Shown: one piece after another, positions 20,817-21,220 of the stretch
Layout: every line of letters starts with the position of its first letter
How positions within the stretch are numbered: position 1 is the stretch's first letter
Assembly: GCF_900176475.1 (NCBI RefSeq)
Contig: NZ_FWXX01000001.1
Location: 62,001-126,000, forward strand
Direction: 5' to 3'
DNA from: Tropicibacter naphthalenivorans
GTDB lineage: Bacteria; Pseudomonadota; Alphaproteobacteria; Rhodobacterales; Rhodobacteraceae
Length of the DNA: 64,000 nucleotides
Notes under the pieces: generated by a model
Seen by the model: the letters and a program-made list of their open reading frames with translations, nothing else
The model's database searches: none
Told to the model about the DNA's origin: nothing
Made by a program: the position numbers and the translations under genes

Positions 20817-20846
20817 GGTGAACGGGCTTGGCGGACTCCGCCAGAT

Positions 20847-20861
20847 GTTCTACTTTAGTTC
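20847..20861 (+). promoter_or_regulatory. LexA (SOS) box, alphaproteobacterial type
   Basis: GTTC (20847-20850), seven bases, GTTC (20858-20861): a perfect match to the GTTC-N7-GTTC box of alphaproteobacterial LexA. It ends two bases before the ATG of the OB-fold gene. A weak -35 candidate, TTGGCG (20828-20833), lies 17 bases before TACTTT (20851-20856), which would place transcription start close to the ATG. Confidence 0.75.
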
Positions 20862-20863
20862 TC

Positions 20864-21220
20864 ATGTCGTGGCCCCGCCCCCCTTTTGCTCTGCCTACCA
20901 GCCAGCTGGATCAGCCGCCCAACGGGGCGCGCGTCACCGTGGCGGGCATCGTGATCCTGCGGCAGCGGCCCGGCACCGCCAAGGGCGTGATTTTCCTCAC
21001 GCTTGAGGATGAGAGCGGCGTGGTCAACGTCATCGTCTGGCGCGCCATGTATGAACGGTTCCGGCGCGCGGTGATCTCTGGGCGGATGCTGCGCGTGACC
21101 GGGCGCATCCAGCGCGACAATGGCGTCACGCATGTTCTGGCCGATACGATTGAGGATATCTCGCCACTGCTGGACCGGCTTTTGGACGACACCCTTTCCA
21201 CAGAGGCACAAAGCCGCTAG
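20864..21220 (+). CDS. Stand-alone OB-fold protein resembling the C-terminus of DnaE2
   Basis: A 118-residue protein whose body, from RVTVAG to ISPLLDRL, closely follows the last domain of the error-prone polymerase DnaE2: the stretch LRQRPGTAKGVIF and TLEDESGVVNVIVW are hallmarks. No polymerase domain precedes it; the upstream 160 bases are intergenic. The frame is intact. An SOS box sits directly before the ATG, the control expected for dnaE2. It could be a 3' remnant of dnaE2 or a working single-domain DNA-binding protein. A TTG 12 codons upstream is an alternative start. Confidence 0.8.
   Translation: MSWPRPPFALPTSQLDQPPNGARVTVAGIVILRQRPGTAKGVIFLTLEDESGVVNVIVWRAMYERFRRAVISGRMLRVTGRIQRDNGVTHVLADTIEDISPLLDRLLDDTLSTEAQSR

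Follow-up and report, generated by a model that had tools for sequence, protein, structure and literature searches.

A Free-Standing OB-Fold Gene Behind a LexA-Type Box in Rhodobacteraceae: Probable Fission of the Error-Prone Polymerase DnaE2

Introduction

The error-prone polymerase DnaE2 belongs with ImuA and ImuB to a mutasome, the genes of which form, in the canonical arrangement, an imuA-imuB-dnaE2 cassette with LexA-type boxes. In the modelled mutasome, ImuB meets DnaE2 via the PHP and helix-hairpin-helix regions (PMC12926913, available part). The OB domain of a DnaE polymerase has been described for E. coli DnaE1 (Pol III α), where it is in contact with the clamp and forms a bridge between fingers, thumb, and exonuclease (PMC4703070, available part). 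Both the CTD and the OB domain are missing from several DnaE2 sequences (Timinskas et al., PMC3919608, in the portion accessible to us), and split mutasome parts are known from iPolY and a stand-alone ImuB-C, which go with DnaE2X (PMC12926913, same part).

Here we describe a small gene from Tropicibacter naphthalenivorans, contained in a stretch of 64,000 nucleotides (the window), that encodes an OB fold of the DnaE2 type and stands apart from any polymerase gene (hereafter, free OB). It resembles the end of fused DnaE2 (PRK05672/NF004225) in its OB sequence, its LexA-type control, and the company of ImuB and, less certainly, ImuA; it differs in being a separate gene, in lacking the R-D-F-H tail, and in carrying an N-terminal W-P-R-P-P motif. 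With the iPolY/ImuB-C system it shares the division of a mutasome protein between two genes, with the free domain as a subunit, but there the divided protein is ImuB (as far as the available part of that source goes). The accessible part of Timinskas et al. (PMC3919608) mentions no free-standing OB gene for its OB-less DnaE2 sequences, whereas in the present case that domain can be traced to a gene of its own, which co-occurs with the core. No earlier report of a free-standing DnaE2 OB gene was found in a literature search that had most subscription journals outside its scope: OB terms gave no matches in the mycobacterial mutasome paper PMC10421592, the available parts of two Dinoroseobacter papers (PMC6473078, PMC9426580) do not mention a free OB gene, and the available part of a 2026 survey of bacterial polymerases does not mention an OB subunit among its 11 complex types (PMC12926913).

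Results

The OB-fold gene lies at positions 20864..21220 of the window on the forward strand and is defined by reading of the open frame, Pfam and NCBIfam matches, orthologues, and an AlphaFold2 model. It is intact, with its ATG at 20864, 118 codons, and a stop codon at 21218-21220. Residues 24-99 (20933..21160, forward strand) make up the OB-fold domain, as delimited by the match to PF01336 (tRNA_anti-codon, OB-fold; E 5.3e-14) and by the strands and helices of the model (mean pLDDT 89.5). The best NCBIfam match is to the error-prone polymerase PRK05672 at positions 944-1040 of 1047 (E 2.6e-32), and lower-scoring matches are DnaE1-type alpha subunits and other OB proteins. The first-pass annotation had called this an intact 118-codon gene resembling the C-terminus of DnaE2, which these matches confirm; it had placed the gene at 20828-21220, of which the end stands and the start does not, since 20828 is an upstream in-frame TTG and relatives start at the ATG after the LexA-type box described below. 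Structural matches of the model are OB-containing chains of AspRS, AsnRS, RPA, and PolC (Z about 12-13); a PDB sequence search with a free-OB profile returned no chain at E up to 0.01. Single OB-fold proteins such as SSB and RPA are alike in fold, but the window protein scores 14.2 bits against the SSB family PF00436, below the cut-off of 26, and its sequence affinity is to DnaE2.

The remainder of a DnaE2 is encoded elsewhere in the same genome (4.45 Mb, 99.98% complete). A single DnaE2 above the family cut-off, at G000:C16:169088-171967, covers profile positions 5-938 of 1047 and then stops, while the window gene covers 944-1040; the one other profile match, on contig C20, falls under the cut-off and is taken to be the replicative DnaE1. 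The link to DnaE2 drawn at first pass thus stands, and its remark that no polymerase part lies upstream is true of the locus: the 118-residue OB chain has no polymerase core, yet an OB-less core sits on contig C16. The C16 protein (985 aa) contains PHP, Pol3, finger, and HhH domains by Pfam, and its model (mean pLDDT 84.1) has bacterial Pol III alpha as its structural matches; it looks catalytically intact. The PDIDVDF motif is kept in 26 of 28 truncated cores.

When these 28 truncated cores were aligned with 41 full-length DnaE2 proteins, the former were seen to end at a domain boundary, 6 to 85 residues past ...HPVALLR, where the linker to the OB domain begins; the protein of the window's genome ends in ...HPVALLRHILTP. 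A terminal R-[DNE]-F-x tail is present in 39/41 fused DnaE2 and 0/28 truncated cores, and in 1/50 free OBs by a looser pattern. Judged from this alignment and the profile positions, the DnaE2 of the window's genome is split just before its OB domain. The free OBs have an element of their own: a W-P-R-P-P motif (residues 3-7; 20870..20884, forward strand), picked out by pattern comparison of free OBs with fused DnaE2, aligns with the linker of the fused forms, and a pattern like it occurs in 47/50 free OBs, in 0/41 fused DnaE2, and at 51/63 free loci of a set of named genomes. This motif is a candidate docking site. The named-genome set comprises 80 loci, of which 63 are free (overlapping the 50-locus set), 15 are fused (among them L206, probably a free locus truncated at a contig end), and 2 lie at contig edges; carriers include Ruegeria, Roseovarius, Roseivivax, Salipiger, Marivita, Mameliella, Rhodovulum, and Planktomarina. 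In one genome (G108, locus L136) the free-OB frame runs to 400 codons; a long stretch of low complexity separates its W-P-R-P-P motif from the OB domain.

The free OB occupies a recurrent site. A 2Fe-2S ferredoxin gene (20378..20701, reverse strand; Fer2, PF00111) is its divergent neighbor and, though outside the system, marks the locus: it adjoins the free OB at 48/50 loci, the exceptions being G219 and G108, and at 60/63 loci of named genomes. Downstream, and likewise outside the system, lies a gene with a peptidoglycan-binding domain (21257..21790, forward strand; PF01471), which is found at 36/50 free-OB loci.

Co-occurrence of the two pieces was examined across the family in 249 genomes, each genus being represented once and the window's genus twice. 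DnaE2 is OB-less, ending near profile position 938, in 109 of these genomes, full-length in 104, absent from 31, and represented by fragments only in 5. The free OB, searched for in these relatives apart from dnaE2, is present in 104 of the 109 genomes with OB-less DnaE2, in 1/104 with full-length DnaE2 (where, save in genomes inspected, it is the per-genome match counts that leave no room for a second OB), in 1/31 with none (a class in which six genomes, G121, G171, G182, G220, G239, and G245, rest on match count and best E-value, and which includes G149 and G230, each with a weaker second match), and in 1/5 with fragments only. Fisher's exact test of truncated against full-length plus none gives 6e-60, a figure that overstates the evidence because the genomes share ancestry and the association therefore counts few independent events. 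During classification, an apparent truncated DnaE2 in G010 was rejected because the two ends of a 217,585-base contig interrupt the gene, an apparent free OB in G203 proved to be the end of a fused DnaE2, and G110 was reclassified as full-length.

Five genomes have an OB-less DnaE2 and no free OB; the place where the gene would be expected appears to be missing from their assemblies. The relevant contig ends 222 bases past the ferredoxin gene in G089 and begins inside the ferredoxin gene in G123; no ferredoxin orthologue was found in G187 and G205 at E 1e-15, and the one ferredoxin found in G069 is only 46% identical. The breaks in the two draft assemblies (G089:C75 and G123:C150) fall at almost one spot, at the ferredoxin gene on the free-OB side. 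Other genomes combine the pieces differently. G262 (taken as Thalassobacter stenotrophicus) has a full-length DnaE2, a free OB with its box, and decayed core pieces, one of which ends at profile position 938; these pieces look like a former OB-less core. G036 (taken as Dinoroseobacter shibae DFL 12) has the split pair on its chromosome, and a 126,304-base replicon carries a full-length cassette; full-length dnaE2 copies were found on plasmids too. G076 (7 contigs, 100% complete) encodes a free OB (G076:C4:2083576-2083899), ImuB, and an ImuA-like protein but no DnaE2 core; each of the three genes has an exact LexA-type box nearby.

A class-wide search of 337 genomes, with at most 12 candidates scored per genome, matched 154. 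Outside the family, the matches listed included 12 open frames of fewer than 700 codons; all were read, and no clear free OB was seen among them. One, in G546, was rejected as a decayed DnaE2; 10 others run upstream into polymerase sequence, nine of them off a contig end; and that of G292 is an OB frame at a contig end with a fused-type tail. No GTTC-N7-GTTC box was present in the stretches read upstream of the 11 frames other than that of G546.

The LexA-type box GTTC-N7-GTTC (GTTCTACTTTAGTTC; 20847..20861, forward strand) is an exact match that ends two bases before the ATG, as had been observed at first pass, and is kept in relatives. Exact occurrences in the window are at chance level (2 found, 1.61 expected from shuffles), so the box needed support from relatives; the second occurrence, at 6308-6322, has a GC-richer spacer. 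An exact box lies at most 450 nt upstream of the gene at 47/50 free-OB loci, and the promoter box is likewise present at 59/63 loci of named genomes; in G108 an exact box is more distant, where its long frame begins. It is this conservation that gives the box its significance. Within the first 41 free-OB loci, 40 exact boxes occur in all, counting both strands over 271,534 positions, and the OB promoter carries one at 39/41 loci. The consensus of the box is GTTC-TATATTT-GTTC. The conservation points to membership of the OB gene in the LexA (SOS) regulon, in which case LexA would bind the box and damage would induce the gene.

Column frequencies in 47 aligned promoters place a predicted −10 element, TACTTT (family consensus TATATT), inside the LexA box at 20851..20856. 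A predicted −35 element, TTGGCG, stands 17 bp from it at 20828..20833, both on the forward strand: across the 47 promoters, T, G/T, G, and C are kept 18 to 15 nt before the box, which fits a −35 element with a 16-17 bp spacer. The first in-frame start lies 1-5 nt past the box in 40/47 loci, most often 2 nt, and 10 or more nt past it in 7/47. The near-leaderless arrangement proposed earlier gains support from this conservation. Transcription is predicted to begin on the A of the ATG or next to it, and because the box moreover occupies the place of a Shine-Dalgarno sequence, leaderless translation of the OB mRNA appears likely.

The other mutasome genes of the window's genome have boxes too. A GAAC-N7-GAAC box precedes the ATG of its dnaE2 core by 13 nt, and across the family 24/27 truncated dnaE2 genes have a LexA-type box upstream (11 exact; 13 by a relaxed pattern run without a chance control). 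Its ImuB gene (L162) is on contig C8, and its ImuA-like gene (L183), which was read directly, is on contig C11, some 495 kb away from the OB gene. In both, a box stands 17 nt ahead of the ATG (the likely ATG in the ImuA-like gene). The protein families and LexA-type boxes are thus those of the canonical cassette, but imuA-like gene, imuB, dnaE2 core, and OB gene occupy four separate loci on contigs C8, C11 (two sites), and C16, and there is no single cassette. ImuB was detected in 40 of 41 split-lineage genomes examined, that of the window included (the miss, G034, is 74% complete), and in 1/13 genomes without DnaE2. Presence of ImuA in the split lineage is less certain: family matches occur in 80/80 genomes, a RecA-sized frame among them, and 0/80 reach the curated cut-off; at least two matches were counted in 41/41 split-lineage genomes, whereas 11 of the 12 genomes that lack DnaE2, G076 not counted, had one. 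The plasmid-borne cassette of Dinoroseobacter has, upstream of its ImuA-like frame, a frame (L112:2475-3275) whose product resembles an SRAP (SOS-associated peptidase).

Selection was assessed over 88 aligned codons in 48 of the 50 free OBs, G219 and G108 being left out for indels. The direction of the difference alone was used because synonymous distances are affected by high GC and saturation; pN was smaller than pS in 1128/1128 pairs, with a median ratio of 0.30. This comparison across orthologues indicates that the free OBs are under purifying selection. In the tree of DnaE2 cores, reported without branch support, the truncated cores do not form one clade: the fused G005 and G018, which retain the terminal tail, lie nearby, G219 groups with G018, and three AT-rich truncated cores lie apart. 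In the OB tree, where basal supports are low, the smallest clade with all free OBs includes 22 fused ones, and G108 lies outside the rest. In G219 the free OB, which has a box of its own, follows the truncated core on the same strand, starting roughly 1 kb past the core's end; this arrangement may be an early stage of the split.

Discussion

The gene is, with high probability, the OB-fold domain of DnaE2, detached by gene fission and kept as an SOS gene of its own, whose product would join the mutasome in trans. This explanation draws on the OB-less dnaE2 in the same genome, the near-perfect co-occurrence of the two pieces, the boxes at both, purifying selection, and the fixed site beside the ferredoxin gene. 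Against it stand G076, with its free OB, ImuB, and ImuA-like gene and no DnaE2 core; G262, in which the free OB accompanies a full-length DnaE2 and decayed core pieces; and the failure of truncated cores and free OBs to form single clades in the trees.

That OB and core are really one gene, divided by assembly or annotation, is barely credible. Such an artefact did account for G010, but the pieces lie in one 3.8-Mb contig of G036, at 99834 and 2893911, and in one contig of G070, at 24984 and 2921541, and promoter and neighbor are conserved. Just as implausible is a decaying dnaE2 remnant that kept its promoter, one of two possibilities raised at first pass. The gene does correspond to only the last tenth of a DnaE2; however, it is intact, conserved in about 100 genera, flanked by the same ferredoxin neighbor at nearly all loci, uniformly constrained in the pairwise codon comparison, and equipped with a motif absent from fused forms, all of which speaks against decay.

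The other possibility raised, a domesticated SOS-induced protein that binds single-stranded DNA independently of DnaE2, is improbable. The OB fold itself, the match to DNA-binding domains of RPA (Z about 12), and retention of the gene in the core-less G076 speak for it, but a free OB is absent from 30/31 DnaE2-less genomes and from 103/104 with full-length DnaE2, and the SSB score is short of its cut-off. It also misses the main point, that the rest of a DnaE2 lacking exactly this domain is encoded elsewhere in the genome and that the pieces co-occur. Somewhat less improbable, though still unlikely, is that the real partner of the OB protein is ImuA-ImuB or the clamp and not the DnaE2 core, which would make it an accessory factor usable with another polymerase. 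G076, where boxed OB, ImuB, and ImuA-like genes persist without a core, speaks for it, as does the contact of the OB domain with the clamp in E. coli DnaE1 (PMC4703070, available part); yet G076 is a single genome, the free OB is otherwise accompanied by a truncated core, and it is this core that misses precisely the OB domain.

The simplest and most likely history is one fission of DnaE2 at the domain boundary followed by a move of the OB part to a place beside the ferredoxin gene. The argument for a single event is chiefly that the free OBs have promoter, motif, and site in common; the trees fall short of proving it. As a working mechanism, DNA damage would cause LexA to release both the OB gene and the dnaE2 core, and the OB protein would be made from a leaderless or nearly leaderless mRNA. 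The core is expected to be recruited by ImuB as usual, since that of the window's genome keeps its PHP and helix-hairpin-helix regions. The free OB would then join the DnaE2-ImuA-ImuB mutasome in trans and complete the enzyme on clamp or template, doing the job of the covalent OB in other DnaE polymerases through contacts to the clamp, the template, or both. More tentatively, and with the balance of our judgment still against it, DnaE2 in these bacteria may be an obligate two-piece polymerase that obtains its OB from a separate SOS gene through a leaderless mRNA, so that assembly of the error-prone enzyme would hinge on two LexA-controlled promoters and its hold on clamp or template could be dosed apart from the core; the free OB might also serve ImuA-ImuB without DnaE2, as in G076.

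The detached OB gene would account for the DnaE2 sequences without an OB domain that were pointed out in 2013 (PMC3919608). It would make DnaE2 a naturally split C-family polymerase across about 100 genera of a single family, with mutasome parts that are unlinked and yet share LexA-type boxes. It is also a candidate for an SOS gene read from a leaderless mRNA. Through this one small gene, the role of the OB domain in error-prone synthesis, whether in handling the template strand, in contacting the clamp, or in mutasome assembly, becomes testable.
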